Made by a program: the position numbers and the translations under genes
Notes under the pieces: model-generated
Databases searched by the model: none
The model's input: only the letters and a program-made list of their open reading frames with translations
Told to the model about the DNA's origin: nothing
Part shown: piece after piece, positions 13,914-64,000 of the stretch
Position numbering within the stretch: position 1 is the first letter of the stretch
Layout of the letters: each line of letters begins with the position of its first letter
NCBI GenBank assembly: GCA_026770025.1
Contig: JAMXDE010000012.1
Coordinates: forward strand, 2,108,001 to 2,172,000
Source: Craspedostauros australis
Taxonomy: Eukaryota > Bacillariophyta > Bacillariophyceae > Mastogloiales > Achnanthaceae
DNA: 64,000 nucleotides
Reading direction: 5' to 3'

Positions 13914-16900
13914 ATGGAGAGTCTGAAGATCCCGATCACATCGACGGGCAAGGCGCAATCCGACGAGTACTGCATCGAGGTGTTCCCCGATGAGGTGCTG
14001 GATGTGCCGTCAGCCCAGCTCCTGGACGTGCTCAACGATGAGTCCGCCGCGCCCTCCATCTGGGCCGACGCGGCGCTGCTGTACATGCAACGCAAGAAGA
14101 AGACGCCCGATGCTGCCAATCTGCTGCAGGTTGCGTGCAAGAGACCTGATCTGAATCGCGATGATCGTCTGCGGTTGCTGGCGTCCGCGGGAATCGCCCA
14201 TTTGACGCAGGCGCAGCAGACCAACAGCAGCGCGTCGGATGGAATCGGCGGCGGCAGCACGGACCCCAAGAGCGAGCTGCGCTCCATGGCGGATGCCCGG
14301 TTCCTGCAGGCCGACAAGGTCGACACCCTCTTTCCCATGACCTGGATGGGACGCGGCATGCTCAACCTGTCCATGGAGCGCTACTCGCAAGCGCGCTTCT
14401 TCTTCGATACCACCCTCACGAAGTGCGGTCAGGTCCTGCCGGCGCTGCTGGGGATGGCCGCTGTGCTCTATGCTGAGAAGAACTACCAAGCGGCGCAGGA
14501 TATGTACGCCAAGGCAATACGATTGCATCCGGAGACCAGCGGCGCGGCCACTCGGGTGGGCTTTGGTTTGGCTTGCTATCAGCTCGGACAGGTGAGTTGC
14601 TGTTGCTGGAGCTGGAGCTGTTGCCATTGGTGCTGGAATGGACTGTCTTTATTTGCTGATTGCGGTACATTCTGTGGGCCTTGGGCGCATGAGTAGGGAG
14701 GCAATTGGTGATGGATGAGGGTCCCTGTGTCGACAACCTCCGATATTCTTGACACCTGCTCGTAGTTGCGTGCCAACGCTCACCCTCTTATGACCATCTG
14801 CACTACTCTACTCTACTCTATCATACTGCCAATACCTTCCCACATGCTCCGACCACAACTCTCAGGTGGATCGTGCCAAGGCAGCATTTGCCAGAGCATT
14901 GGAGATCGACCATGAGAACGTGGATGCGATGGTTGGAGCTGCCGTCTTGGACATGGCAAGCCTCGACGAGACGAGCAAGGCGTTCAGCTCACAGATGGAA
15001 AAGGCTATCAAGATGATGTCCATGGCCAACCTCATCGACGACTCCAACGCGATGGTGCAGAATCATCTGGCCAACCATTACTTCTGGAAGTGGACGTCGG
15101 TGCCAGGGACCGTCACAATGCAGGAGGGGTCCACGCTGGTGCAGTCGTCGGAACCCGTCTCCATCGAACCAGGTGAGAGCATCCGCATTGGCACCTCCTT
15201 CGAAACACAGGTGGCCGATGACGTCATGCCAGACGAAGAGGAGGATGCCACCAAGTTCCGAATGAAGACTCCTTGGAAGACCACGGACATCAAGGGCATC
15301 AAGGTCTGGAGGAAGGACTACGACCGTGTCATCTCGCTGGCCAAGCGCGCCTGCAACAGCACGTCGGTGCAGAGTATCCAGGCCGAATCCCTCTTCTTCT
15401 TGGCACGTGTGCACCACGTGCGGGGAGATTACGACGCAGCGCACAAGCTCTATGAACGCGCCTGCAAGCTCTCTCCGAGCCTCAGTCCTGCCAGATTCGG
15501 ACTCGCGCAGACCCTCATCACTCAGGACAAGTTCAAGCAGGCAGCAGCTCACCTGCAGCTCATCTTGGGCACATTCAACACCGCGACAGACGCGCTCGCA
15601 GCTGTGGGACTGCTCGAGGTCAAGGGCGTTACCAAATACGCCGAAGGTTTGACGTATCTTCGCAAGGCCGTGGATTTGGACCCTCTCAACCCGGATCTCA
15701 TCGTCCTGGAATCGCTCGCGTTGCAGCAACAGGACAGCAATTATCCAAAGGCATTGGAATCGTACAAGAAGGCGATCCGGCTCATGGAACGGCAAAACAA
15801 GTCCATCGATCCAGAAGTCTTCACCAACGTCGGCGTTCTATGTCACGAAACCAAGCAGTACGATGAGTGCCTCCAGATGTACAGGCGGGCACTGGAAGCG
15901 CTGGATGCCACTGGTGCCTTGCAGACAGCAACCATGGAGAATACCGGCATCGAAGGCGGTCGTGTTCGCCATGCGGAGAATCACATGTTTTGGGGGTACT
16001 TGGACACAGGCCTGGAGCTCGATTATCCAGCAGATGCAGGAGATGATGGTGTGAAGGAATGCAAAATCAAGGACTCGCAGGACAAAGACGCATCATCCCT
16101 TGCTGTCAAGGCCGGCGATCACATACAGATCGAGGCTGCCGATAACTTCGAATCGGAGGTCTTAGAAATCAAAGCAGCATCAGACGGAAATGGACTGTCG
16201 ATTGTCTTCGGGGAGCGCTTCAAGATCACGAAGGGCCAAGACAAGGAGAATGAGGGGGAGGAGACTTCTGCCAAAGCGAGCAACGATGCGCCACCCAAGC
16301 TCAAGGTCAAACGCGAAAACGCGTTGCTCACGAATTCAAAGGCGCTTACCATCGCGTTCAATATTGCGAGGCTTCACGAAATCATCGGAAAGACGATGGC
16401 AGCTGTCGAAATTCACAAAGCGATCGCCAAGCGCAACCCGGTGTATGTGAACAGTTATCTGAGATTGGCCTGCATCGCCATCGACTGCGGTGCGCTGAAG
16501 GAATGTGCCGGCTGGTTGAAACTCGCGGCAGAAACCGCGCCCGGAAATCCGGAAGTGCTGACCCTGATTGGCAACCTCCATCTTTCCCTCTGCGATTGGG
16601 CTCCGGCTCAGCAGGTATTCGATGGATTACTGGCCAAGAAGGTTCCGAACGTCGAGGCCTACGCCATGCTCAGCCTGGGCAACATATACTTCGCCAACCT
16701 GAAAGTGTCGCCGAAGCGATATGCCAAGCACTTGCAATACGCGGCCGATTACTACAAGCGCATCCTGACCAAGGACAACTCGAATGCCTACGCGGCGAAT
16801 GGAATCGGCACCGTCCTTGCCGAAAAGGGCGAACTCTTCAAGGCGAAGGAAGTCTTCAACCGCGTGCGCCAAGTGAGCGGTGATACCATCGCGGATGCTC

Positions 16901-18093
16901 ACCTCAATCTGGGACACGTGTACCTGGCGCAGAAGCGACATTCGGAAGCCCTGCAGATGTATCAAAGCTACATGAAACGCACGGAGGATGGCAGCGCCCC
17001 AATCTCCTCGAAAAGCCGTGTCGACGACCTCGTCGATGTCCTGATGTACATTGCATTCGCCTACTTTGATTGGGCCAGACAGACGGAGCTGTTCGACAAC
17101 CCGAAGGCGGCACCGGCCGACGAACGCTACCAGAAGGCGATGCACTACCTCGAGACAGCACTATCCAAGAACACATCCAAGAACGTCATCCTCACATACA
17201 ACCTGTGCATGACGAAGCTTCAAGCCGCGGATTGCGTGCTGCGAAAGATGTCGAGGAACATTCGCCGGACGGCTCAGGAGGTCCGCGATGCCCTGGACAA
17301 CCTCAACGAAAGTCTCGCGACTGTTGAGAACATGATCAAGGGGAAGCAAGACAAATCAATGAAGGTTCCCATCGCGACGTCCATGTTGAATGATTTTGTC
17401 CAGAATTGTCGCAGTAACATCGACAGTGCCAAGTCGCATCTCGAGGACGAGATCAGCCGCGAGGTAGAGGCCAACAAGGAACGGCAGATGAAGCAACAGA
17501 TCGCCGAGGAGCAACGCCAAGAGAAGGAACTCAAGGAGGCCCTGCGCAAGTCGGAATCTGCGAAGCGACAGGAGGAACGAGATCGTCGAGCATACGCAGC
17601 GATGAGGAAGGTAGATGATCTCCGAGCCGGGTGGGAGCAGGCCAGGGCCGCCGAGCAAGCGGCGACAGAAAAGAAGGCCAAGAAGAACGGGCCCGCCCCG
17701 CCGATCGCCGACAGGGATCCGGAGGAGCAGGAGGAGTTCCCGGACGAGGCTCAGAACCAGGATACAGCGGCGCTGTTTGAGGATTCCGACGATGATTCGG
17801 ACGATGACAACGGCGGCGCCAACGCCAATGGGGGCGACAAAGCAGCAGCATCCAGTGGTGACGGGGAGAGCAACAGAAACGGCAACAAAGAAAGCAAGGA
17901 TGACGACGACGAGAAGAAAGAAGAAACCAAGCAAGCGACGCAGGAAGATCTGTTCGGGGACGACAGCAGCGACGACAGCGACGAAGAGCTGGTGCCGTCA
18001 AGCCAAAAACGCGACATTTCCGAAACGAGCAACGGTGATGATGGCGAATCCGCCACCAAGAAGGCAAGAATAACAGGCGAAGACGATGACTGA
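13914..18093 (+). CDS. CTR9: CTR9, TPR scaffold subunit of the Paf1 transcription elongation complex, two exons
   Basis: Nuclear scaffold that binds RNA polymerase II with Paf1, Leo1, Cdc73 and Rtf1 and supports histone modification during elongation. Exon 1 is 13914-14591 and exon 2 is 14866-18093. Donor GTGAGT and acceptor CTCAG join in phase 0 as YQLGQ|VDRAKAAFARAL; the intron is 274 bases and the product 1301 residues. The chosen ATG has a purine at -3 and precedes MESLKIPI. TPR repeats run through most of the protein. A Lys/Glu/Arg coiled coil lies at about 1088-1170, followed by an acidic tail with DLFGDDSSDDSDEE, a hallmark of CTR9. It is longer than the human protein partly because of two beta-rich insertions near residues 320-375 and 641-685 (see findings). 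Confidence 0.95.
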
Positions 18094-25464: not shown

Positions 25465-27609
25465 TGTTGCTTGGAGTACTCTATATGCGCGGCAGCGTTT
25501 GGTTTGTTGCTCTGTCTGTTTTTGTGTGTGTGTGTCGGATACAGTATTTTGCGATGGTGGAATGCGTTGGCGTATCGTTGTCGTTGCGGTCGTTGTTGAG
25601 TTTGCGATGGTTGATTCGTTGATTTGTCGATTTGTCGGTTGGTTCGTCAATTGGGAGAGCAGATGGCGGCAATACGAGTGGCGGCAGTAGAGTTGATGGG
25701 GTACATTCGTAGGGACAAGCGCACGAGCATGATAGCCACGGGGCAGAGCCATACGGTCGATCAGTGTAGAGAGCATTCGTGTTGCGGCGACAACGAGAGC
25801 CCAAGAGGGAATGGAATTGTGAGATGACAGCAAGGCGATTGGTCAGCAAGCCACTCCAAAGAGAATGCAAACGTAAACAGGTAATGGAAACTTAATCTGT
25901 CGTTGAATCTGGATCCGGACCTGAATCCGGACGTGGATCTGAAACTGTGCACGAGCAAATCGTGCGGATAGAGAGCAGCACATCGTCTAGCCGAAGTAGA
26001 GAAGAAGTGACTGGTGGATGGATGGATGGAAGGATTGATCGGTTGCCTTGATGCTGGGCCGTGTGGATGGTATGGTGCCGTGCGATATTGTTGGAGATTC
26101 TTGGACTCGTCGCCAGCCGTGGGATCGACCGGCTGGAGCCCTTCAGAAGGGGATCACTGCTGGACCCACCGCAGCAACAAACGAAGCCTGGTCGTCACGA
26201 GCATTGCGAAGGTGACAACCACATGACCATCTCGTGGTTGAAGCGGTGGCCATGCTCCGCCATGTGAAAGAGGACGAATGGAGCAGCACCACAAGCAGGG
26301 CAGCACAAAGCTGACCGTCGCCGAGCTGCACCCACGTCAACCGTCTTTCTCTCCTTGTGTGGGATGAGGCAGCGACCCAGAATGCAAGGCCCAGCAGGCG
26401 CAGTCAACAGACAGATACGAGCGTGCATAGAGCAGTCGCGCGTATCAGCGTACTCAAAGAGCATGGCTGCCTACTCACGTTGTGATGAACAAACTGCTTC
26501 GATCTGGCAGTCTCAGTGTCGGTGGTGCTGCGGCTGCCGTTATCCTTTTGTCAGTGAGTGGACCAGCGTGCGGTTGTCGGTGCCAGTGCAGGTGTTGGCG
26601 TTGCTGGGTGCTCTTGCGCAAGAGGGTGCAAATACGATCTGCTCCCCGTGTAGGTCGTAGTGCCAGTGCGGTCTCCGAGACAGCGATGGCAAAGACAGCA
26701 GCAACACCAACGTCAGGTGTCGGTGTGGTGATGGCAGCAAGATCGCAACGAGAAGGGTGGGACACCAAGAGAGAACTGCGCGCAGCCACCAAGGTCTGCG
26801 CTCTTGCCGAAACCCACAAGCTGCCGCGTTCCCAAAACACAACAAGAATCGCCCAACAAGATCCCAAAAGCAAGGATACGAAAATCAGTTTCGTGTCGTT
26901 GCGACTCATCGGAGTCAATGTCCATTGACATTCTGAGCAGCCCGTTGTGACCATTTTGAGCTGGGACTGTCACCAACACGAAAAACGGGAAGCCTCCAGT
27001 GACCTCTCTTGGCACCAACGACAACACCGACCATGGCACCGATACGGTGCATGCCGGCGGGAGTGGTTGCGCAAACCCAGACACTCAGACTCCACCACGA
27101 GAGAGCCACCACCGACCCACATGACAAAAGGCGAAGGCACCACAAACAGTGAACAGCAGAGGCAACAACAACACCAGCGGCAACACCAGCGGAAACGATT
27201 TGCTCTCTGGTGGAAGAACCCTTCCTCACATTCGTAACTGGTCGAAGCACAAGGAATCACGGTCGATACCGCTGCTCAGCTCGACTCAGTTTGGTTCAGC
27301 TTGTTGGTACTAGTTCAGCTCAACTGAGCCATCCAACGGCCAGAGTTGGACCCTTGACACCGCGAGCACTTCAAGTCTCTGTTCGTGTTTGGGGGAACGC
27401 TGGCGTCAGCCGCACACCGCACCACATCCCACTATACCACACTATACCACACCTTCCCACATTATCCCACGCACTACTCTTATCGTGCTCCGGAACTCGA
27501 GATAACGGCAGTATTAGCAGCGGTAACGATAGCGAGAGCAACAGTCAGCAACAGCAATAGCAACAACCAGCAACAACCAGCAACGGCCATAGCCATAGCC
27601 ACAGCAATC
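25465..27609. other. Divergent intergenic region between GLYR and the cyclic-nucleotide-dependent kinase
   Basis: 2.1 kb with no supported gene. A GAGTACTC palindrome lies at 25474-25481, ten bases upstream of the GLYR ATG. GT-rich DNA occurs near 25520 and CAACACCAGCGG repeats near 27165-27195. The kinase frame is open upstream to 27385, but that stretch is Asn/Gln/Ala repeat and is taken as leader. Confidence 0.5.
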
Positions 27610-30600
27610 ATGGCCTCCGCTGCATCAAAATGGCAGAATGCCCTCAAGATGGCGACGGCCAAAGCGACGGGTGGCAAGTCAAAAGCCAACAGTACAGTGT
27701 CCAACGATAGCAACGCAAGCAACACAGGCAACACAGGCAACACAGGCAACACTAGCAACACTGGCAACAATGACGCTGCCTCACCTTCCCAAGGAAACAG
27801 CGATGCTGGAACTGGAGGTAGGTCTCAACAAGCAGCCTCAGGAACGGACAGCAACACCACCGACACCACTCACAACAACAGCAACAACAGCAACAACAAC
27901 TCAGGCGAACGAAGCGTCAAGATGAAGTGGCAGAACGCATTTAAGAAAGCAAGCTCCAAGGCTTCTGGTGTCATGGCAGCTGCCGCAGCAGCCACTGCCA
28001 CCGCCGCCTCCGCAGCTGCAACATCGGTTACCAGCGTCCACACGAGCAGTGTAGCCAGCGCTGCGAGTCGCAAGGAATCGGTCAGCGACGCCAAGCGTGC
28101 CAAAGCATCGCCATCTACAACCGCGACGGCCACCACTGCATCGGCTGCTCAGCAGACCAGTGCACAACAATCGCGATCACAGGCAGGTACACAGGCACAA
28201 ACAGAACAGACGCCCAAGGCATCAGGGAACAAGAAGCGTCTGTCATCATTATTCCTGCGCAAAAGGATGAGCGTTAGGCGCAGCGGTACTGGCCGAAGCA
28301 GCACTCTCAATCCAAACTCATCATCCGGTCCGGGCGGTGACAATGCCAAGCAGTCGCGCGCTCAGGCCGTCATGGAAAAGATCCTCATGGCCAAGAATGA
28401 ACTGCAAACCAGCGTCGGCGATGCGGCCAACCAGATGATGTCCTCCAAAGGCAATGGAACCGGCCCTATTGGTACGACCACCTCCAAAGAACGCCGCTCC
28501 AAACCGGTGTCAGCCAATTCATTGGACCCCAGCCCCGGCTTTCAGCAATTTCATGGAAAGTGGCAGACCACCAAAAGCACGGAGTCTTCCACGTCTGCGT
28601 CATCACCGTCGAACGCAACGACCAAATCGAGCATCACGAGTCCCGTCAAACAACTCTTTGGGTCGCTATCCTTCGAGAGCAAGGGCGACACTGACGGCGC
28701 GGCGTCGGGCACACCGACCAAAACTGCCGATGGCACCGCTGCCGTTGATACGGACGGTGAATCAACGAAGCCTGAGAAGAAGCTTTCCAACGAGCAGATG
28801 CTCAAAATGAAGGCCAAACAGGCTCTCGTCAGGAAGAAGAAGCGCGACAAAGATGAACCTCCGAGCAAGGAGGGGGCGATCTGGAACAAACTGCTACGCA
28901 CCAGTTTGCGATTAGTCACGGCCAAACGACGCGTCATGGCCAAGCGCGTCAAGCTGCACAATGTGTGGGGCAAGAGTTTGGAGGACGACGAAGCGGAGTT
29001 CACCCCACCCGTCTATCCGAAGTCAAAGGAGGACTGCGACATGATCCGTCACGTCATGACGCAAAATTTCGTCTTCGACAACCTCGTGCCCAAAGAGACC
29101 GAGGCCATGGTCAATGCCTTCGAAATGATTGAGTACCAACCAAAGACCACCATCGTCGAGCAGGGCGAACAGGGATGGTTCTTTTACATCGTCAAGACTG
29201 GTAAGATCGAGCTCGTCATCAATGGCGAGCTGGTCGGCACGGCGACCAACGGCAACTCCTTCGGCGAACTGGCGTTGCTCTACTCCTGTCCTCGTGCTGC
29301 CTCCGTCCGTGTCGCGGACAACCACGATGAGCCCACCGTGCTGTTCCGCGTCTACCAAATGAGCTTCCGCCACTTGCTCCGCGCCCAGCTGAAGCAGTCC
29401 ATGACGGATCGAATGAATATGCTGCGCAGCGTCCATTTCTTCAAGGACTTGCAAGAGGCCGACCTCATGCAGCTTGGTGCCGCCATGTTGCCACATGTGT
29501 TCCGGAAGGGTGATGACATCATGAAGGGCAACGCGACACCATTCTGCCTGATCCAGGAAGGTGAAGTCATCGCTCGCGATATTAAGATCGGTGAACAAGC
29601 CGTCGAGGACGTGCATATTGGACCGGGACAGCATTTCGGAGAAGACTCCTTGTCGAAGATTGGCACATCGGTCAAGGCCAGCACCATGACTGCGTTGTCG
29701 ACAGGTGTGGCATTCACCATCGATCGAGACACATTTGAAAAAGTGTTCGGTGATATCAGCCGTCTGGCCATCAAAACGTTGCACAAGCAAAGGCTGGAGG
29801 AAGTCGCCACAATACGGAATTCCAATCTCACCGAGTCAGAACTCGACACGCTCTCCAGGCAAGTCGAGGACAAGACCTTCGGCGCACGGCGTGTGCTGTT
29901 CACTCGAGGTTCCATCTGCACGCCTGCATTGTATCTAGTCGAGAAGGGCTCCGTCAAGCTCATTCAGAAGGACGGCACGGAAGAGATCGTCAAGGAGGGT
30001 GGTTGCTTCGGCGAAGATTTCTTCTCGATGGATACCAGCAAGCCAATGGTGAAGGCCAAGTTCACCGCGCTGACGTTGGAGCAGACCACGTGCGGGATAC
30101 TGACGATCCGCGAATGTCGGTTGGTTATGGGCGAGCAACGTATGAATGCGATCGCCGGAGCGACAGGAGCATCCATTGCCGGCAGCAGCACAGAGCAGGA
30201 GCACGCACTCTCCATTGACGACTTCGCACGTCATCGCATTTTGGGTACCGGACTGTTTGGCAAAGTTTGGCTGGTATCCAAGAAGAAGAACGACATCGGC
30301 ATCTTGGCACACGCGGAGGGTGATGACGACCAGCTGCAGGAATCCAAGATCGATATCGATATCGAAGATAGATCGTCATCTTCCGCAATCAAGGATGACG
30401 AATTCTACGCCCTCAAGGTCCAATCCACCCAAAAATCCGTCCGACCCAATGCCACCAAGCTTATCCGATGTGAAATCAAGGTCATGAAGAGGTTGCAGCA
30501 CCCCTTCGTGATCCGGTTGCTCCACGTCTTCCCAGAACCTGACGCGATATCCATGCTGATGAGCGTCGCGCCTGGCGGCGAGCTGTTTGATATCATCCAC

Positions 30601-31499
30601 CAGGAAGATGAGAATGGGAATTGGGCGTCGGGCATTGGCGAGATCGGAAAGTTCTACGCCATGGTCATCGCCGATACACTGGCCTTCATGCATCGTCGGC
30701 ACTACGTCTACCGCGATTTGAAGCCTGAGAATGTGCTGATAGACTCTGATGGGTATCCCGTGATTACGGACTTCGGATTCAGTAAGTTGTCACCTGTGCG
30801 CATGCACGGATGCTTGTTGTGCTGTATTCCACGTTCCACATTCCACCAAATGCACACGCTATTGACATGGTCGTGCTGGTGCTGCTGTTGCTATGTTGCT
30901 GCAATGGGCAGTCTCGGTGACATATTGACAACAACAGAGTATTCTCACCTTGTCCTTCTTCATTCTCAATTTGCGTCTTGGTGTGTCCCCCCACCCGTTC
31001 CAAATGCGCTTGCGTAATATTGCCACGGCAATCAATACCCTCGTTGTAATTGTCAACGGCAACGGCAACGGCAACGGCAACGAGAACAGCCAAGAAGGTG
31101 ACCGACAAAACGTACACCTTCTGCGGCACGCCCAACTACTTGCCACCCGAGATCATTCTGAACCGTGGGCATGACGTGACTGCCGACAATTGGTGTTTGG
31201 GTGTTTTGATATACGAATTGATCGAGGGTGAGAATCCGTTCTTCGAGTCCGGCATGAATCAGATGACGTTGTACGAAACGATCTGCAAGGAGCCTCATTA
31301 CCCGTTGCCTGAGGACTCGGTGTCAGAAGATGCGCGCGATTTGGTGAACCGCCTGCTCGAGAAGGATCCCAACATGAGACTGGGCACGTTCCGCGAGAAG
31401 GACATCCTGGAACACACGTGGTTTGCGGAGTACGACCTGAAGAAGCTCCGGACCAAGGAAATTGAATCTCCGTGGGCGCCGGATGCCATCGAGCCGTAG
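27610..31499 (+). CDS. Cyclic-nucleotide-dependent AGC protein kinase with three nucleotide-binding domains (PKG-like), two exons
   Basis: Exon 1 is 27610-30781 and exon 2 is 31090-31499. Donor GTAAGT and acceptor AACAG restore DFGF|TKKVTDKTYTFCGTP across a 308-base intron; the product is 1193 residues. The ATG at 27610 begins MASAASKWQNALKMA, a motif repeated at about residue 103 (KMKWQNAFKKA). The first 430 residues are Ser/Thr/Asn-rich. Cyclic-nucleotide domains lie at about 485-590, 607-725 and 740-840. Only the first has an intact phosphate-binding cassette (FGELALLYSCPRAASV); in the others the key Arg is missing (FGEDSLSKIGTSVKAS and FGEDFFSMDTSK). The kinase domain runs from about 871: GTGLFGKV loop, ALKV lysine, YRDLKPEN, DFG, and PPE in place of APE. 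It ends in an AGC tail with IESPWAP. Likely a cytoplasmic cGMP or cAMP effector; the ligand is not proven by sequence. Confidence 0.92.
27721..27768 (+). repeat. Nine-base coding repeat (Asn-Thr-Gly units) in the kinase gene
   Basis: AACACAGGC and close variants are repeated in tandem and encode NTG/NTS units in the disordered N-terminal part of the kinase. The same type of unit is repeated in the ATP10 gene. Confidence 0.85.
31055..31078 (+). repeat. (AACGGC)4 just before the kinase intron acceptor
   Basis: Four perfect AACGGC units lie 11 bases before the splice acceptor of the kinase intron (exon starts at 31090), where a pyrimidine tract would be expected. Confidence 0.85.
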
Positions 31500-52444: not shown

Positions 52445-54052
52445 CTACTTATTCTTTTTTGCTTTGCTGGTCGCAGATTTCTTGGTCACATTCTTCACCT
52501 TTCTCCCGTCGCTCTCCTCCTTCTTCCACTTGCCTTGAACGTACTCGACGAGATACTGCGCTAATGCCAGGACGACAAGGACGGGGACGAAGATACACAC
52601 TTTGTCGAAGTACAGCGGGCCGTTATCTGTCCCAAACGTGGTACAGAACCAGACGAAGAGGGTCGAAATGAATTGTGGAAGTCTTCCACCGCCCAACATT
52701 GCCACAAATGGCAGGACCATTCGTCGTGCTGTGGATATAGGAGTGGCGAAGACGTACTTTCGTGCCACATAGACTGGCTCATCACTGGAGTTGGGCAGCA
52801 TTGCATGGAGAGTGCTGAGATCAACATGCCGGTTGGCGTGGTCATTCGAGTTGTGATGGACAACTGCCATGCCTCTCTGGGGGCTGATTTTGATCGGCTC
52901 CTTGCCCGACGGGTACACAATCGGGCCACCTGCGTCGGATAGGAAGACGGTGATCGTCGCAATGGGCACTGTGGCGGAGCCCGAAGCATCACCACCGAAG
53001 GTGTCGTAGTGCGGCAACCAATGCCCCCCGGGCTCGACGCGGTCAACGACAAAGTCGCTAAAATGGGCCGTAGGGAATCCTGTCACCTGCTCGATCCGTT
53101 CTTCGGATGCTTTCCTCGACTGGCTTTGCAGCATGCCCTCCCACAATATCAAACGGTCGACGCCCTTGCTTTTCTCGGGCTGATCGTAGAGCTGGAGAAG
53201 ATCTATGCCGCCAACACTGCTCGGTATTTTCGGCTGCAAAGCCTCCACCCGGTTTCGCACGTCGCGGACCTCATCGTCCGTCAGGAGGTTGTGGATGAGG
53301 TACAAGGTCGGTTCCGCTGGCTCAACGTCTTCAAAAAACGGCCTGTCCCCTGCTGCGTACAAGCGAACTCGGTCCGGCATCCCGTGGTTGACGATTTCTT
53401 CCTGTGTCATTCCGGCGTCGACCGTCGCGGTCGTTAGGACATTGGCAGAATTCAACGACACCATGATAACCGGAATGTCGATATCCTTGGCCATCTGCAA
53501 CTCTTGCTGGCCTGCGTCCATTCGGAAGATATCGTCAGGGCGTTTGTCATTCACGTTAACGACGAGCAGGGCAGCCGCGCCGCTAATCTTGGCAACTTCC
53601 GCCATCTGCACATACGATAGCACGCCTCCGTTGGTCATGACGACCATGTTCCCCTCCACCTCATCAGCGTTGAGAAGCTTTTGAGGCTCGCCAAGTCTCT
53701 CATCTCGATCTTCAGATCCTCCGTCAGCATCTACGCTTCCAGTGAGAGGTGAGGCCAGAATGGGCTTGCACTCAACCTCCAGAAGCGCTGCCTGATCGGT
53801 CTGCGGTCCAAAATAAGCAACTGACGCATCGAGCGCCGATATCACAGCTGAATTTCCCCACTCGAGCACAGCAGCTTCTACTTGCGTGCGGCGCGGAAAG
53901 TGCAAGTACGGCAGGGATGATAAATTTCCATCAGCAAACCGTTTGCTGCTGTTTGCGTGTTCGTCCTGAGCGGTCACGGCGTGCGGCGCCTGCATCAGCG
54001 ACAAGTTCCATGCAAGGAAAGGGATTCCGAGCATCGGGGAGGAACACTTCAT
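52445..54052 (-). CDS. ER membrane prolyl 4-hydroxylase-like 2OG-Fe(II) oxygenase with a PA domain
   Basis: Single exon, 535 residues from the ATG at 54052, chosen because it begins a signal peptide (MLGIPFLAWNLSLMQAPHAVTA). A protease-associated (PA) domain lies at about 97-205 (NMVVMTNGGVLSYVQMAEVA, GAAALLVVNVNDK, IPVIMVS). The oxygenase domain is at about 250-450, starting LYLIHNLLTDDEVRDVRNRV. It has the iron ligands HxD in LPHYDTFGG (about 346) and a distal His in LHAMLP, and the 2-oxoglutarate-binding basic residue in VARKYVF. A C-terminal membrane helix (VCIFVPVLVVLALAQYLV) and a lysine-rich tail ending KKNK follow; KKxx is an ER retrieval signal. It probably hydroxylates proline in secreted proteins. 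The frame is open 213 codons further upstream to another ATG at 54691, but that stretch is not protein-like. Confidence 0.87.
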   Translation of the reverse strand: MKCSSPMLGIPFLAWNLSLMQAPHAVTAQDEHANSSKRFADGNLSSLPYLHFPRRTQVEAAVLEWGNSAVISALDASVAYFGPQTDQAALLEVECKPILASPLTGSVDADGGSEDRDERLGEPQKLLNADEVEGNMVVMTNGGVLSYVQMAEVAKISGAAALLVVNVNDKRPDDIFRMDAGQQELQMAKDIDIPVIMVSLNSANVLTTATVDAGMTQEEIVNHGMPDRVRLYAAGDRPFFEDVEPAEPTLYLIHNLLTDDEVRDVRNRVEALQPKIPSSVGGIDLLQLYDQPEKSKGVDRLILWEGMLQSQSRKASEERIEQVTGFPTAHFSDFVVDRVEPGGHWLPHYDTFGGDASGSATVPIATITVFLSDAGGPIVYPSGKEPIKISPQRGMAVVHHNSNDHANRHVDLSTLHAMLPNSSDEPVYVARKYVFATPISTARRMVLPFVAMLGGGRLPQFISTLFVWFCTTFGTDNGPLYFDKVCIFVPVLVVLALAQYLVEYVQGKWKKEESDGRKVKNVTKKSATSKAKKNK

Positions 54053-55308
54053 GATGCTCGTCGTCTGTCCTTGTCTGCACTCGTGCCCTCCGTACGTACT
54101 GCGAGTATGCCAGCAGTTCTCACCACCTCCGTCACCGGCTGCGCTGCCCAACTGAGCTGATTGAGATAGAAACGAGGAGGGCAGAGCGGAGCAAGGTATG
54201 GTTGAGTATGGTAGATTGTGCTCTACTTGTGTGGGTATGTCGCGGTACGGATGGGGTGCAGCACAGCAGTTTGTCAGGAATGAGAGCACCTCCGTCGCTC
54301 GTAACGGGCTCAACGTCGCTGGAGACGGGATGGTGTAACCTGCGATGTTGGGACCCTCTCTGGTGGGTCGACCTCGGCTTGGCTTTGGATGACGCCTCGC
54401 GGATGCGACAACTTGTGGTGTGTGCTTCGCGTCATCTGTGCGAATTCTCTGGAAGTCCTGCCTCCACGTGGATTTCACGCATGTGTTGGTCGGGTGACTC
54501 GATCGCGCGATCCTTGATCCACTCACAAACGAAGGCCAGACCAATGTCTGTATGTTCACACAAGAAGTTCGTGACATACGAAAAAGCAGGTATGAAAACA
54601 CAATTCGCACGAGGTTTCGACACAATCTGCGAAAATGGCTCAACCCCCCAAAACGCAAGAAACAGAACACTCTCTTCCAGAATACTACCATAAATTACTA
54701 AATTCATCGTACTACATGCGCTTTTTGGGCGTTCGCGAGTGAAAAATCCACAACGAGTTCGGGTATACGGGACTCAAATCAAAAGTGTTTGACAACAGTA
54801 TATTACCAGTACTCCCGAAAGGCGAGAAGCATGCGTTTCAGCAGATCATCTCCACCAAAGCGTTTGGACATGGGACCCTCCTCCGGGTTGACACTGCCCT
54901 CTGCATTTCTCATCGCGCCATACACACATGCATAGTCGCATGGCACCCCGCCCATTGCATCCGCATGCGTGCTGGAGGCACGAACTCCACACCTCGGACG
55001 AAGTGCGACTTTTCTACTCAACACGGAAATTATGCTAACGCTGAAGAATATGATGGTAACGTGTGAATTACGTGTACTCAAGATCTGATCAAGATGACGC
55101 TGGGCTGTGCGTCATACTATGCTTGTGTTGAAAGGTGTTTTGGGTGTATTCACCTGCGCACGCGTGCAACGAATGGATGGTGTTGTCATGCGTGTGATGG
55201 CGGAACCAGGGTGTCTGCAGAGCTGCTGCTGTCTCCCGAAAGGGATCCTGGACTCCACGGGACTGTTCATCCTGTCGAATTCCAGCCTAAGCTGACGTGC
55301 TCTGCGGC
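54053..55308. other. Intergenic region between the prolyl hydroxylase and the giant adhesin
   Basis: 1.26 kb. Upstream DNA of the hydroxylase and downstream DNA of the giant gene. No RNA gene, repeat or convincing frame beyond the upstream extension mentioned for the hydroxylase. Confidence 0.55.
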
Positions 55309-58300
55309 TTACAGCAAGAGGTTGCCGTTGGTCAACATGTCTTGCAATGTCAAACTTCCAACACCTTCGATGCGTACGAGCAATGAGCTTGCCAGCCCCG
55401 TTCCGTCAGGGTCGATGTAGACTTCGACGTCTCCGGTACCGGTTGGTCTCAGCTCGACGTACTTGTCAATCTCAGTTTCGGCGAACTGAATGTCGAACCC
55501 GTTCAGAAGCTTTCCAAAGTTCAATTGGTCACCTTCGGCCGCATCGAAGTTTCTGATGGTGTCCGTGGCAGTCGGGGCCAACCAGATGAATTCGTCAACG
55601 CCAGGTCCTCCAATCATCGTGTCGCTTGCTGCGCCGCTGATGAATCGGTCATGCCCACCGTTACCGGTGAGGGTACTGCCAGAGGCGCCTGCTCGGAGAA
55701 GATCGTTGGTTGCTGTTCCTACCGTGGTCTCGGCACCGACCTCAGTCGGCACTTCGCTGAGAGTAAGTCGGAAGTCATCCGTGATGGTCTCTCCGATGGA
55801 GATGAATGTCAAATTGCTGTCTGTGGTGAAACCTGAGATCTCAACCTGGTTGGCTCCGTTCGCCTCGTATCCTGGTGCACACACAAGGTACACCTCGTTG
55901 GACTGAGCTTCAGTTCCGGTGAAGGTCCACTCCTCCGTCGTCTCGTCGTAGAACAAGCGTCCTCCAGCCGCGGCGTGCAAGACCACGCCTGCTGGAAGGT
56001 CTGTCAAGGTCAAAGTGATCACTTCTTCTGGGAACTCCCCCAGAGTGGCGCCGCCGCGGGCCCTTGTTCCGATGGTGTCAACCATTCGAATATTCATGTC
56101 CAACTTGTTTATGCACGTGGTGTTTTCGACATTTTCCGTCAAGATGAGGAATTCATCGGCTGAGGGGCAAACTTCAACCTCAAAGCTGAACGCACCTTCC
56201 GTTTCGTCACCATTGAAATCTTCGATGACGAATCCACGGAGCGTCAGATCCAAGACACCAGAATAGTGTTCCGGTGGCTTGTACTCCAGCGTCTCGAGCT
56301 CCTCGACAGGGATAAACCATTGGTTGTTACCAGAGTTGGAACCGGCACTGAAGAAGGAACCCTCTGGGACGCCATCAACGACGACAGACAACAGCTCGGG
56401 ACCGTTCGCGGTCTCATTATCAACGAGCTCGGCGACCAGGCCGTACAGTGGGAAGAAGACATCCTCCTCTCCCTTGTTGTCCATGCCAGAAATCATTGGA
56501 ACATCCGCAACCGCATGCACCGTCACAGTGCTCGATGCTTCTGACCACAGCACATGATCTCCATCGTCATCATCAGATGGCTCCTCGGTGGCGCTGATCA
56601 CACTGATCGTGACAGCGCCATGCCAATGGACTGGTGGATTGATGACGAAAGATTCGGCCTCTGCAAGCGTCATACGGTAGTACCCGTCGACGTTCTGTGT
56701 AATGCCTCTGAAACTTGTGGTTCCAGATACCATAGTGCCTTCGCTGATAGAGAATGGAGTGTTTCCTGGTGTGTCGAGAGCAACACTCACGTAGACGAAC
56801 TCATGAACATCTTCACTCCCGTCCACATCTAGTTCGCTGACGGTGATTCGCGCCGAAATCGGGTTGTCTTCACCCACGTCGGGGGCGTTGATTCTGATCG
56901 ATGGCCCATCAGCAACAGGGTCGACCTCCACGAAGAGGGTTGTTGGTCCTGTTGTAGCTGTGAGGAACGCATCATTCAATGCGAACGCCTCTGCGGTGAA
57001 GTTGAGAGTTCCAGAGAAGTCGCCAATTGGGCAAATCTCCACTTCCCTGATGGCATCGGATGACACAGTGTATGTCTCCTTACCAGTGGCGCGCTCCTGG
57101 ACGAAGTCACGGAAAGCACCCGTGACGGTCGTGCCTTCTGGCAAGTCCGTGATTTGAATGGATAAGATCACATCACCGGTCTCGTTGACGCCACGAAGGA
57201 GCTGAGCATCAATTGGATAACAGTCGTCTTCCGTGGTGTCATTCGAAAACACAATGAGCTGAGGTACTTCTGGAGGGGTGTATCCACAGGATTCGATGGA
57301 ATCGCACGCATCAGGTGGATGGAAGACGGTCATGTTGATCACGGTTTGGTTCTGTGCGACGCTCATTCCATCCAAAGCGATCGCAGTGAAGGTGAAAATG
57401 TTTGTGGAGTTGATGTTGGGCTCGCTCACGATGAACAAGCCTCCATTTCTGGAGGCACTTCGCAACTCTCCTCGTTGGAATAGCCATGTGTCGTTGCTTG
57501 CGCGGAAGCCGACGATGCCTCCTGTGGCGTTCTCCACTCTGAAGCTGAAGTTGAATTCGATTGCCTCCAGAATGTAGTAGATGCTCTCTGATTCATTACG
57601 GTTCAAGTCAATATCGTCTCTGTCGGTAATATTTCCACTGAGTTCAATCGGCAACGGCACGTTCGAAGGTCCAAAGACTTCTGGCGTCGCGAACACGGTT
57701 GGCACATCCGCAACGGGTGCTATTGAGACGCTGAAATTCGCACTCTGGCTGTAGGTGCGAACTTCGAGGTTGCCATTGATTGTCGCTGTGTCCGTAATCT
57801 CTGCCTTGACCGGGAGAGAAAATGGAATATCCGAATCAAGGAAAAGGTCGTAGTCGATCGAAATGCCCGAGATGTTGCCAGGTGTAATGCTGATGATTCC
57901 CGTGGTGTTGTCAAATTCGAAATTTCCATGCAACAGATCAGCAGCAACCAGGTCAACAACAGTTGCATTTTGTTTACCGGTCAGCATATCCAATCTGGAC
58001 TGGATTTGTGCATCTTCGATCAAGTTGCTCAAATCGAAAGTGAAGCCAATCACCTTCTCGGAGTTGTCGTTGTCCTTGTATCCGAAGATGCCGGCATTTG
58101 CAAGAGAAATATCCCCGCCTGCTTCCGTTTTTGCTTCGTCCGTTGAGAATGATGTTCTCCAATTTGCGAGGCCATCGACTGTGCTGTTGTTGATCACAGG
58201 GTAGACATCAATTTCGAGGACCCAGGGATCGGATGGAGTCTGATCTCCGTCAAGTTCCTGGGAGAGCGACGAGATCGTAATATGATCGTACGTCGTCGCC

Positions 58301-61300
58301 TGGCTCGGGTCCGCAGCGTTGATCTCTCCGGAGAAATTAGGAATCGGGGGAAGGTACAGATCTGCGACTTGGTCTGGGAACACCTGGTAACGACCTCCGC
58401 CAAGGTATGCGACCGGGTCGCCGGATGACAGCTTTGGTCTCACGCCATCAGGCAGATTTTCGATGATCAACGAGATCGATTCAGAAGTATCTGTATCGAC
58501 AAGCAAGCCAGTGAGGTTGATGGCCGGGCCCAAGAAGTATCGCTCATCCTCGAAAGCATCGATTGCGATTGAACTTGTTCTTGGCTTGTCGGCAATGCCC
58601 GTGATGTCGACGGTGACGTTGTAGTTGAACGCCTTGATATCAATGCCGCCAGTCGTTTGATCCGTGACTTGGATGTACGTCTCCAATAGGATGGGTCCTT
58701 GAAGAGCTTCAGAATAGTGAAGAGGCGGGAGCACCTCCAAATTCTCGATGGCTTCTGGGGGCAAAACGTAACGACCGTCGACAGGTGTGAGTGTCGTGTC
58801 CGCAAAACGCAGCTCAGTCCCTTCCGGAAGATTCGACGCGACGATGAACGCCACGTAGGTCTCAGAACCGTCAAGATCGCCAAGAGTGATACTGAATGGG
58901 ACGTCGAGAATGGTGTCTTCCACGCCAATTGCATTGCTCTTTACTCTGACTTCGGGAATGTCTACAACGGGCGCGATGGCGATCGAAAAATAGTCAGTGA
59001 CATTTTCAAATTCACTCGTGCCGTCTGCCCCACCGAAACTTGGATTTGCGAACCCAGGAAATTCCTGTGAGATTGTTTGAACTTTGATTCCTTCTGTTCC
59101 GTTCAATCCGGCCGACCAGTTGTCCGCAGCGTCGAATTCGATACCTGAGTTGGCTAGCACAGTGTTGATGGCAGCCACGGCCTCCACGTCGGTTGCGTCG
59201 TCGTCGGCCACATGGATATCATAGACTCCATCGCCGAGGTCGTCAAGTCTTATCAGACCAGTCGACGAAGAGTCAACAATTGTGCCGATTGGCACCAGGC
59301 CATCGCGTGCATGTTCGTAGAGAGGAAGTGTGATCCTGACGAAAGGACGCTCGGACCCGTCAGCATCATTACTGCGATCGATTGTGAAGTTCAGTGGTAT
59401 GTTGGGCCCATCTTCCTGGCCTGAAATCAACTTTTCATTGACAATAATCACAGGTACATCTGCAACACCATCAATGGTGACTCGGTGTTCGTATTCGAAG
59501 TCTCCTTCGTTTGCGACGCCAAGATTGATGTCGACAGTGCTGACTTGAACAGTGAAGGAATCATCAAAAGCTGCATGCATTGGCCCATGATTCATGCTGA
59601 ATGTTCTGATGGTGTCTCGAATTTCACTTTCTGCTTCGGCGAGCTCTTCTCTGGTGAGGTTCAGGAGGCTGTCAGTGTTGGTGATGAGGTCGTGGGTTAC
59701 GATGTAAGTGTCATTGCCACCATCGTACTCCACCTTCGCGCCACCGACTCCATCGATCGTAGATCCTGGAACTGTTGGGACAAAGGTTCCGAACCAGTCG
59801 AAATCAAGCACTCCTACAGTTGGTGTCCTGTGAATAATGATTTGAGTGATGAACTCCGTCTCTGGATTGTTGCCAACGACCACGGTTGTGTTCGTTTCGT
59901 CCGTGGAATTTGTTCCTCCTGTGACGTTCGTTGGATCGGCTGGGGCTGATTCGTTGAATCCAACATCCACCAGCACCATGTTCGCAAGGTCTTCACCCAC
60001 TGATACAAGCTGAATGTCTTCTGTGCCTGACGAAGACGTTGAAACAGGTGGATCAGCCACCGGGAAGATGGTCAAATTGACTCCCTTGGAAGATGTGAAA
60101 GCAGTTGCCGAATTTGTAGCTGATCCATCCACAACGGCACCTCTAACGATCATCGGGAGACGCTCTCCGCTGAAATGATCGCCTCCTTGGAGTTCGATGG
60201 GTTTATTGGGATCAAGTGGGACGCGAATCCAATTCGGATCAGGACCATCGTCAGTCGGAATCTGAACTCCACCAACAAACACCTTGATACCAGGTGGCGC
60301 AGAAAACCGAAGGATCTCGACAAATTGGTTCTCCGAAGCATCTGTGTCAACAATCCCTGTAATGTCCACGGAAGGGAATGGGATGCGCGTGTCTTCCAAA
60401 CCAACCAAGTTCGAGAAATTAAGAACTGCAACGATGGTTTCAGTGATCACAGGGTCCACCGGGATGAGGAATGAATCGACAGCGGTAGCACGAGGGATGG
60501 CGACTTCGCCGTCCTCGGTTGGATTGGACTCAATGGCCGTCACGATGACCGTCACGTTGATGTCCTCTCCATTGAAGAGACCGGGCTTGATCTCCAAATC
60601 GAGCAACGCGGACTCAATGTCATCCGTGGCACCGACGATCACGACGATGCCATCGTCGATGGTGATGTTCACATCTGGGTAGGATGCGTTGCTGGGGAAT
60701 CTCACCACAGGTGCGTTGCCGTTTCCTGGCGTCGTCAGAATGATCGTCACGTTCTCGAACGTCTCCGATCCATCGAAGTCGTTCAGGCTCACGTTGACTG
60801 GGTAGTTCTTCAGCGTCGAGTTCTCGGCGACGGTCACCATGGTCTCATTTCCAGCCTCTACGGATGGCTGATCGACCACGGCGAGCACTGTCACGTAGTA
60901 CTTCAGCGAGAACGAGTCTTCGACTGTCGTCACGCCATTCGAGTCTGTCACCGTTCCGTTCAGCTGGACGACGAAGTTCTTGTCGTCATCGTCGGCCAGG
61001 GTGATGTTGAAGCTCTCCAGCACGGTCAGCACCTCGGTGCTGTTGGCTCCGCTGAGGGTGATTGTGGTTCCAGCTGGTCCCTCGGTCACGTTCACCGTGA
61101 CGCCCGGGATTCCGTTGTGGCTGGTGGTCTGCAGGTTGGGTGGCAGGCCGGACACGAGCAGATCCAAGGATTCGGATCCGTCCGTGTCGTCGAGGGAGTC
61201 GGCAGAGATGTTGAGCAGCTCGCCGAGCTCCACGATCAGGTCTGTGTCGGCGGTCACCGTCATGACGTTCTCGAACACGGTCAGGTTCTGCGGGAACAGG

Positions 61301-64000
61301 TCCGGCAGGTCGGCACTCGGGTTGAGTGTCACTGTGATGAAGTCCACCACAGTCTCTGTCTTGCTGGTTCCGTCCGGTCCTCCCAGCGAACCGTCGGCGA
61401 TCTGATCGCCGGTCTCGCGCTCCGTGGACACGGCCTTGACGATGATCGAGTTGTTGCCCTCGTACACGCCGGAAAGCTGGGGACGGGGGGGTGAACAGGA
61501 TGCCTCTGCCGTTCGTCACGTCCAGGGCATCGTTCAGTGCGTCCTCGCGCGCCTGGGCGCTGTCCTCAAGAGCGGTCAGGTTCGTTGTGTTCATCACGTA
61601 CACGCCGTTGCCGAGCGAGGTGAAGGTCACGCCCGTTGGGAGGTTGGCGTTGCCACCAACCACACTCAGCTCACCGATCGGTCCGAAGTCGTCCGACGGC
61701 ACCTCCCAGACAATCGAAGTCACCTCCGAGTTGTCCGGTCCGTCTGCGCTGTGCGTCACGTTCACATCGATGATCGCTGTGTTGTCTTCCTGGATGCTGA
61801 TGTTGTTGGCGGACACGATCGGTGGGTCCGCGCGGGCCTGGATGATGATCGGATGGACGAAGTCTGTGTCAAACTCGTCCGACTGCCCGATCTCCACGTC
61901 CAGTGTGGTCACTGTCACGTTGATGCTTGTGTCCCTGTCCGTGTGCTCTGGGCCCACGGTGAGGTTGAAGGCGGCCAACGTCTCGCGGATGTGCTGCTCG
62001 GCCTGCTCTCGTGTTGCTTGGTCCAGATCGCCAAGGGTGCCCGCAGAACGGGCATCCTCGATGAGGCTGCTCGTGATGATGTACGACAGCGTGTTATCGC
62101 CGTTGTTGACGTACTCCACCAGACCGCTGTTCGATCCGGTTCCGTTGCTGTCGATGGTGGGGAGCACGTAGGTTCCGCTGAAGGAGAATTCCTCCTGGCT
62201 GTTGTTTGTGGGCACCGTCAGCCGCACTCGGGTGATGGTCTCGGTGTCGGCGTTGTTGCCAACTCCGCTGCCATCGTCGACGACGCGGATTCCGCTCACG
62301 GGATCGGCCAGGTCTTCTCCCACTCGCACGGGTGCGTAGTCCTCGATGCCAAGAGAGGCGGTCGAATTGAGGATCGCTGGATCGGCGACTGGGGCGACAA
62401 ACACTGGGAAGATCTGTGGCGTCGTAACGCCGCTCACCTCCTCTCCGTTGTCTCCTGTGTCTGTGATGTTCATGCGAACGATCAACTCGATCACGCCGCT
62501 GAAGTTGTCAGGTGGCACGATGCTCACTTCCTTGTCGGTTGGCAACACCAGGAAGCCATCGGGTGTGAAGTTGTCCGGGTCGGTGAGGTTGACGGGGACG
62601 CCGTCCACCAGGATCTGGCTTCCATCAGGGATGCTTGTTTCGTTGATTTGGAACGATTCGAATGCCTCGGAACCGTCTGGATCAGACGTAACGTTAATAG
62701 TACCAACCTTCAAGTCAATGCCCGTTACTGGATCCTCGATGTCTGACACGTTCGGAAGGATGACCAGATCGGAAACCACCGGATCCACCGGGATGACGAA
62801 TGAATCGACCGAGGTAGCACGAGGGATGGCGACTTCGCCGTCCTCGGTTGGATTGGACTCAATGGCCGTCACGATGACCGTCACGTTGATGTCCTCTCCA
62901 TTTCCAAACCCTGGTCTGATCTCCAGCTCTTCCATCGCTTCTTCGATCTGGCTGGCGTTGCCTGTCAGCGTCACCACGCCATCGATGATGGTGATGTTCA
63001 CATCTGGGTAGGATGCGTTGCTGGGGAATCTCACCACAGGTGCGTTGCCGTTTCCTGGCGTCGTCAGAATGATCGTCACGTCCTCGAACGTCTCCGATCC
63101 ATCGAAGTCGTTCAGGCTCACGTTGACTGGGTAGTTCTTCAGTGGCGAGTTCTCGGCGACGGTCACCATGGTCTCATTTCCAGCCTCTACGGATGGCTGA
63201 TCGACCACGGCGAGCACTGTCACGTAGTACTTCAGCGAGAACGAGTCTTCGACTGTCGTCACGCCATTCGAGTCTGTCACCGTTCCGTTCAGCTGGACGA
63301 CGAAGTTCTTGTCGTCATCGTCGGCCAGGGTGATGTTGAAGCTCTCCAGCACGGTCAGCACCTCGGTGCTGTTGGCTCCGCTGAGGGTGATTGTGGTTCC
63401 AGCTGGTCCCTCGGTCACGTTCACCGTGACGCCCGGGATTCCGTTGTGGCTGGTGGTCTGCAGGTTGGGTGGCAGGCCGGACACGAGCAGATCCAAGGAT
63501 TCGGATCCGTCCGTGTCGTCGAGGGAGTCGGCAGAGATGTTGAGCAGCTCGCCGAGCTCCACGATCAGGTCTGTGTCGGCGGTCACCGTCATGACGTTCT
63601 CGAACACGGTCAGGTTCTGCGGGAACAGGTCCGGCAGGTCGGCACTCGGGTTGAGTGTCACTGTGATGAGGTCCACCACAGTCTCTGTCTTGCTGGTTCC
63701 GTCCGGTCCTCCCAGCGAACCGTCGGCGATCTGATCGCCGGTCTCGCGCTCCGTGGACACGGCCTTGACGATGATCGAGTTGTTGCCCTCGTACACGCCG
63801 GAAAGCTGGGGACGGGGGGTGAACAGGATGCCTCTGCCGTTCGTCACGTCCAGGGCATCGTTCAGTGCGTCCTCGCGCGCCTGGGCGCTGTCCTCAAGAG
63901 CGGTCAGGTTCGTTGTGTTCATCACGTACACGCCGTTGCCGAGCGAGGTGAAGGTCACGCCCGTTGGGAGGTTGGCGTTGCCACCAACCACACTCAGCTC
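55309..64000 (-). CDS. Giant repeat protein resembling bacterial type I secreted RTX adhesins; partial at its 5' end, one frameshift
   Basis: Almost 2900 codons are visible without an intron, running in from beyond the right edge and ending with a stop at 55309. The protein is a chain of domains of about 110-150 residues. Each starts near a (V/I)AxxADVPxxxxxxxxxxEDxxI-type segment, followed by DxDGSE, GLPEG-type turns and PPxHYSG. This is the pattern of the T1SS-143/cadherin-like repeats of bacterial surface adhesins. The last 120 residues hold a glycine-aspartate-rich module (GNGGHDRF, DTMIGGPGVDEFIWL) and a close (VYIDPDGTG, LQDMLTNGNLLL) like the C-terminal domain of type I secretion substrates. 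Many N-x-S/T sequons occur. The frame breaks near 61486-61492 at a G run (7 G against 6 G in the tandem copy at 63814-63819). Likely a secreted or surface, Ca-binding adhesive protein; function is inferred. Confidence 0.8.
60480..61672 (-). repeat. Tandem coding repeat, downstream copy (period 2328 bases = 776 codons)
   Basis: This stretch matches 62809-64000. The match is close to identical from about 60670 onward, with a diverged patch at about 60565-60655. The offset is 2329 bases left of the G run at 61486 and 2328 right of it, so the period is 776 codons once the extra G is discounted. Confidence 0.9.
61486..61492 (-). other. Homopolymer frameshift site in the giant gene
   Basis: Seven G (top strand) here against six at the same place in the tandem copy (63814-63819). 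The extra base shifts the frame between the two halves of an otherwise open gene. A sequencing or assembly error in a G run is the simplest reading; true inactivation is the alternative. Confidence 0.85.
62809..64000 (-). repeat. Tandem coding repeat, upstream copy, cut by the window edge
   Basis: Partner of 60480-61672. It differs by only scattered bases over most of its length, for example CGTTCTCG against CGTCCTCG and GAAGTCC against GAGGTCC. It continues beyond the window. Confidence 0.9.

Follow-up and report, generated by a model that had tools for sequence, protein, structure and literature searches.

Organization of the locus

The window analysed here is a stretch of 64,000 nucleotides from Craspedostauros australis and lies on a 2.19 Mb contig (C10). 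From 64000 down to 55309 its minus strand is open along the entire length except for one base. An initial annotation of the window had placed a giant adhesin of bacterial type in this region of a eukaryotic chromosome. Both the adhesin-like open reading frame and its setting are upheld, the neighbouring genes on the contig being eukaryotic, and the gene is larger than had been noted, running beyond these coordinates to the end of C10. The features referred to below are as follows.

27385–31017, plus strand: long open frame encoding a protein kinase domain along with three cyclic-nucleotide-binding stretches
52445–54691, minus strand: downstream neighbour, separate from the giant gene, with a PA domain above cut-off and a 2OG-Fe(II) oxygenase match below cut-off
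55309–61491, minus strand: portion of the giant gene lying 3′ of the frame break (∼2059 codons plus stop)
55318–55563, minus strand: type I secretion C-terminal target domain (TIGR03661, VCA0849), covering profile positions 1–90 of 91
55615–55719, minus strand: RTX nonapeptide β-roll stretch (PF00353), with one strict GGxGxD in the C-terminal 141 residues
55756–60456, minus strand: 11 non-identical cadherin-like/Ig-like repeats of 115–199 residues outside the array, with boundaries chosen by eye and similarity to Azospirillum giants
60442–64000, minus strand: 3′ end of a near-identical array with units of 2328 or 2307 bp and ∼5 domains each, continuing to the contig end and recurring on contig C4
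61485–61491, minus strand: C7 homopolymer producing a one-base frame break; the site reads C6 in the other 10 of its 11 C10 copies

An open frame of 2052 residues has its 3′ end at 55309 and overlaps a second frame that leaves the window. Measured from stop to stop on the minus strand, the downstream frame comprises 2068 codons (55312–61515); the upstream frame comprises 8598 codons, from 60989 to the end of C10, and is open throughout. Across the one-base break, the C10 part of the giant gene amounts to 10,491 codons, corresponding to 1,106 kDa (about 1.1 MDa) of protein. The simplest reading of the break is that it is probably a consensus error in a near-identical repeat, the alternative being a real frameshift. 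The DxDGSE- and PPxHYSG-type signatures reported earlier were recovered: the upstream frame has 33 D-x-D-x-S-E motifs and 11 PP-x-[HN]-[FYW]-S-like motifs, the downstream frame eight and two. No Rfam family was matched within the window. Other neighbouring frames encode a bZIP factor and TPR proteins. The product of 52445–54691 (minus strand), which sits beside the gene for the giant, presumably secreted protein, is possibly a prolyl hydroxylase.

The C-terminal module

The end of the protein matches TIGR03661 with a score of 25.4 bits over residues 1969–2050 of 2052, and with 32.9 bits in a scan of the genome, where this was the sole match found (cut-off 17.6). The VCA0849-type C-terminus recognized in the initial annotation is therefore confirmed by profile search, as is its LLxNGxLL-style close, the protein terminating in MLTNGNLLL. 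A check of the RTX assignment was divided, with PF00353 scoring 25.5 bits in the genome scan (cut-off 23, again the sole match found) versus 11.3 bits in the whole-protein scan. A structure model of the C-terminal region displays an RTX-type β-roll with high confidence (pLDDT 92.8), and a fold search with this model returned 31 matches at E ≤ 0.001, namely serralysin-type proteases, alginate epimerase modules (AlgE) and lipases, with the β-rolls of serralysin-type proteins and AlgE ranking highest. Strict GGxGxD motifs number one in the diatom, compared with three to five in 17 of 21 bacterial rows and with 0, 1, 2 and 2 in the other four; judged from this count, calcium binding by the roll may be weakened in the diatom.

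A single peptide pattern was used to search the genomes of bacteria and archaea for relatives of the module; it gave 425 stretches, of which 103 were confirmed and 80 were kept. Going by their titles, we take these 80 loci to be proteobacterial. When 21 loci chosen from the 80 were aligned, the C-terminal 141 residues of the diatom protein were 34–42% identical to 19 of the domains and 49% and 27% identical to the other two. Adhesins of Vibrio and Cupriavidus (loci L053, L056–L061 and L108) have this C-terminal domain in common with the diatom protein and are 24–42% identical to it in the aligned rows. A tree of 56 rows, consisting of the window and the 55 of the 80 loci with a match of at least 330 bases (25 were dropped), leaves the diatom row unplaced on a long branch, no starred set containing it. 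Phages were rejected as a source, with three of 50,697 phage records matched and these by the C-terminal part alone. On viral contigs, 20 relatives of the C-terminal domain were observed.

The repeat domains and their bacterial relatives

The initial annotation had described the chain of repeats as cadherin-like and assigned them to the T1SS-143 type. The latter assignment was rejected: TIGR03660 (cut-off 66.05 bits) found nothing in the genome at E ≤ 10, nor anything in the 11 domains, while two Vibrio relatives serving as positive controls reached 404 and 1087 bits. These two Vibrio adhesins carry true T1SS-143 repeats, whereas the model does not recognize those of the diatom. The cadherin label found no backing in Pfam either, as searches for cadherin families drew a blank in the window frames (E ≤ 1), in the 11 domains (E ≤ 10) and in one frame of C4 (E ≤ 0.1). 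The closest model is tandem-95 (NF012211; cut-off 90 bits), to which three of the 11 domains are weakly similar (best E of 0.0044; one score of 14.1 bits) and which found nothing in the longer frames at E ≤ 1; it is also matched by the two Vibrio proteins and by two Azospirillum giants. None of the repeat domains lies above any family cut-off.

Of 72,556 plasmid records, 21 were matched by a query of 1188 residues. Among these, four from Azospirillum cover 81–92% of the query at 23.9–25.3% identity, and a query from the array matches the same four with E values of 1e-5 to 6e-4. The downstream part of the protein scores 117 bits against an Azospirillum giant, whereas reversing the query gives 21.6–22.7 bits and 30 local shuffles never exceed 24.3 bits. 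The Azospirillum giant Ig-like proteins WP_012977562.1 and WP_111068863.1 resemble the diatom repeats in long alignments of ∼25% identity and are themselves very long, but they are shorter than the diatom protein (5519 and 4620 residues), differ from it at the C-terminal end, have no sequon excess (z of 0.7 and 1.0) and, unlike it, are encoded beside type I secretion genes. The two giant genes that were inspected among the four records adjoin HlyD and ABC genes. In both cases these genes precede the giant gene, and a MarR-family regulator in the opposite orientation comes after it (L051, 23485–23991; L052, 23498–23989). Among the 80 bacterial proteins with the C-terminal domain, ten match the non-array repeats and none matches the array unit at E < 1e-3; the reversed-query control over the same 80 gave three matches, with a best E of 2.3. 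With a best score of 69.7 bits, one Vibrio plasmid protein matches the downstream part; at E ≤ 1e-3 it shows no match to the array.

A profile was built from 11 of the 18 segmented domains (eight of the 11 non-array domains and three array domains; alignment A2) and compared with solved structures. At E ≤ 1 it found two entries, each with a bacterial name, among them the 'Large adhesion protein' 9cse, presumably of bacterial origin, at E = 1e-5 (1.6e-4 for the best single stretch). The model of a single repeat domain is weak, with a pLDDT of 73.9, and at E ≤ 0.001 it found no matching fold; its top, non-significant folds include α-dystroglycan.

The proposed affinity to bacterial type I secreted adhesins is thus supported by the VCA0849 end together with repeats like those of the Azospirillum giants. 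The protein could instead be a eukaryotic one of cadherin or dystroglycan type, its repeats having come to resemble those of bacterial adhesins by convergence and the short C-terminal domain alone having been acquired. The repeat identity to bacteria, weak at ∼25%, leaves room for possible convergence or very old divergence, and such a protein would also agree with the silence of TIGR03660 and with the appearance of α-dystroglycan among the top folds. However, the Azospirillum similarity far exceeds the shuffled and reversed controls, Pfam's cadherin families are unmatched, and both structure matches of the 11-domain profile are bacterial by name. We consider convergence unlikely.

The near-identical array and its apparent continuation on a second contig

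The array units of 2328 and 2307 bp correspond to 776 and 769 residues. Ten full units were compared on C10, six of the longer type and four of the shorter. Units of the same type differ at 0–8 bases (plus the one-base indel), as against 177–185 differences and 53–54 gap columns between the two types. A query of 300 residues from the array gave 21 matches in the genome, 12 on C10 and nine at the left end of C4. A marker site occurs in 11 copies on C10 and in nine on C4, where the spacing is 2328 except for one of 2330; up to two of these 20 copies may be duplicate sightings of one copy. The array on C4 is read in frames of 3937 and 2852 codons, offset by two single-base insertions 172 bases apart, of which 3905 + 2829 = 6,734 codons were counted as coding.

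The orientation is compatible with the left end of C4 lying upstream of the right end of C10, with C4 as the 5′ part, and we infer that a single gene spans the two contigs. An overlap of at most ∼1,480 codons was allowed for, because the penultimate full unit on C10 belongs to the 2307 type, of which the C4 spacing gives no sign. The joined gene would encode at least ∼15,700 residues, the open codons coming to ∼15,700–17,200 by our own sum. Contig C12, having no sequence in common with the C10 array, was ruled out as the 5′ half; C4 fits instead. The Pfam families BON (33.2 bits; cut-off 27) and Plug (26.6 bits; cut-off 23.9) rose above their cut-offs in one C4 array frame, with no single stretch passing. 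They were rejected as domains and are read as weak matches summed over identical repeats.

Upstream of the array, C4 carries a PTS-rich linker together with several short open frames whose phases differ. In a simple GT–AG model, six introns of 69–219 bases link these frames to a start with the signal-peptide-like sequence MKLEMLGRLLLMPLLFGAVGSEQARA. The last candidate intron (GTAAGT to CACGCAG; 80 bases) is the best looking by eye. The splice model is home-made and rival starts score 36.9–38.7 against 38.8 for the chosen start; one modelled exon contains a run of hydrophobic residues, which could belong to an intron or cross a membrane. We regard this multi-exon start with its signal-peptide-like 5′ exon as tentative, the alternatives scoring so closely.

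Glycosylation sequons and export route

In three stretches of the protein, the number of N-x-S/T sequons is 2.3, 2.8 and 3.4 times that expected (z of 6.1, 6.7 and 7.7), and the enrichment persists after shuffling inside 30-residue blocks (z of 6.1 and 6.3). In four neighbouring diatom genes the sequon excess is not significant (z from −0.9 to 1.5). Three bacterial relatives show 1.09, 1.14 and 0.88 times the expected number, and the ratio pooled over the 80 bacterial relatives is 1.16 (1936 observed versus 1666 expected), a small excess. The last 153 residues of the diatom protein contain no sequon.

Neither HlyD (TIGR01843) nor TolC (PF02321) gave a match at E ≤ 0.001 in the one genome searched, which makes type I export of the diatom protein very unlikely. 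Sequon enrichment and the tentative signal-peptide-like exon suggest export through the ER, the sequon pattern being one that selection along an ER/Golgi pathway would be expected to produce. The initial annotation had found the retention of a type I secretion signal without a transporter puzzling. This puzzle dissolves if the route is the ER, as sequons and the candidate 5′ exon would have it: the retained C-terminal tail then need not act as a secretion signal and can persist for its fold.

A further possibility is a transferred gene that is now decaying and functionless. The frame breaks at 61485–61491 and on C4 could be taken in this sense, as could the single strict GGxGxD where most bacterial rows have three to five (17 of 21). 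On the other hand, some 15,700–17,200 codons are otherwise open, each break comes down to single-base differences within a repeat for which polishing is difficult, and the sequon enrichment implies selection within the diatom; decay appears to us decidedly improbable.

Origin of the gene

The GC3 of the non-array part is 0.59, compared with 0.49–0.71 for five neighbours and 0.89–0.90 for two Azospirillum genes. Bacterial contamination or a misjoin, in which an adhesin from a diatom-associated bacterium was wrongly attached to diatom contigs, would explain why the C-terminal domain and the repeats look proteobacterial. However, the array is present on two separate contigs, GC3 is in line with that of the neighbour genes, sequons are enriched unlike in the bacterial relatives, the HlyD and TolC models find nothing and the C4 part opens with a PTS-rich region and candidate introns. 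We regard this explanation as extremely improbable.

Horizontal acquisition, as suggested initially, is the best reading of the VCA0849 end and the Azospirillum-like repeats, although the C-terminal tree does not place the diatom row. Transfer from bacteria is likely, the comparisons having covered bacterial, archaeal, plasmid, phage and viral sequence. Taken together, it is quite probable that the window holds the 3′ terminus of a single giant gene of the diatom, whose product would be secreted, N-glycosylated and rope-like, an adhesion protein probably derived from bacteria.

In such a protein, many near-identical units of ∼776 residues, built from Ig/cadherin-like β-sandwich domains, would form a long extender. 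In RTX adhesins, the linkers between extender β-sandwiches are stiffened by calcium (PMC7493085). By analogy, and given the acidic repeats, the diatom extender would probably be stiffened by calcium between its domains and form a long rod in seawater. The eleven non-identical domains, followed by the RTX-type β-roll with its VCA0849 end, would cap the C-terminus. The eukaryotic 5′ region, with its candidate introns, signal-peptide-like start and PTS-rich linker, would route the protein through the ER, and the exported protein could be a strand of the gliding adhesive. The type I secretion domain would be retained as a folded cap or ligand module and not as a secretion signal.

Relationship to adhesive-trail proteins

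C. australis is a raphid, gliding diatom (PMC11420354; PMC13056149). Two exceptionally large modular proteins, CaTrailin4 (∼900 kDa) and Ca5609 (>1 MDa), are described from its trails in PMC11420354, in which Ca5609 is attributed to Zackova Suchanova et al. (2023) and in which very large trail proteins, ∼2 µm long, are said to be able to bridge a raphe slit of 300–500 nm. The predicted structure of CaTrailin_4 is reported to resemble a bacterial ice-binding protein (PMC10713564). Among the literature found, PMC11420354 alone gives Ca5609 by name, and the titles and abstract openings, the original 2023 paper aside, contain no report of a VCA0849 end or a bacterial origin for Ca5609.

The C10 part alone, at 1,106 kDa and with no PF20597 match, fits Ca5609 (>1 MDa) rather than a Trailin. 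Ca5609 comes from the same species, is compatible in size and is a giant trail protein not called a Trailin; it is known here by its published size, and from this agreement in size the giant gene is likely to be that of Ca5609. The adhesive role put forward initially is plausible. Going by the title of the 2023 paper by Zackova Suchanova et al. (10.1111/nph.19145), trail proteins were reportedly acquired from bacteria. PF20597, which we take to be the CAA domain of Trailins, has eight matches in the genome, none of them on C10 or C4. The Trailins of C. australis are giant adhesive-trail proteins, as the product of the giant gene would be, but they have the CAA domain, which is absent from it. 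Membership of the Trailins was rejected, as C10 and C4 lack PF20597 and the frames on C23 and C12 are unlike these repeats at E ≤ 0.01.

A fuller history is possible and is offered more tentatively: a bacterial RTX adhesin may have been transferred to a gliding diatom and become a megadalton motility tether, with the ER replacing type I export, sequons accumulating in the repeats, the array being amplified to give a protein of perhaps at least 15,700 residues and the secretion domain taking on a new role as a folded cap. Few of the molecules through which raphid diatoms transfer force to a surface are known. If this history is correct, a giant bacterial-type tether would show a eukaryote adopting a bacterial adhesin and a secretion-signal domain outliving its own secretion system, and would offer a defined target for tests of force transmission and biofouling.

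Two further giant frames were observed. The frame at C23:344492–373915 comprises 9808 codons with a PF20597 domain and more than 1,600 PTS triplets; its mass of 894 kDa from the first Met fits the ∼900 kDa of CaTrailin4, which it probably encodes. The frame at C12:2–24082 comprises 8027 codons with a PF20597 domain and leaves the contig end in PTSG repeats, which places a contig break inside a giant adhesin-like gene.
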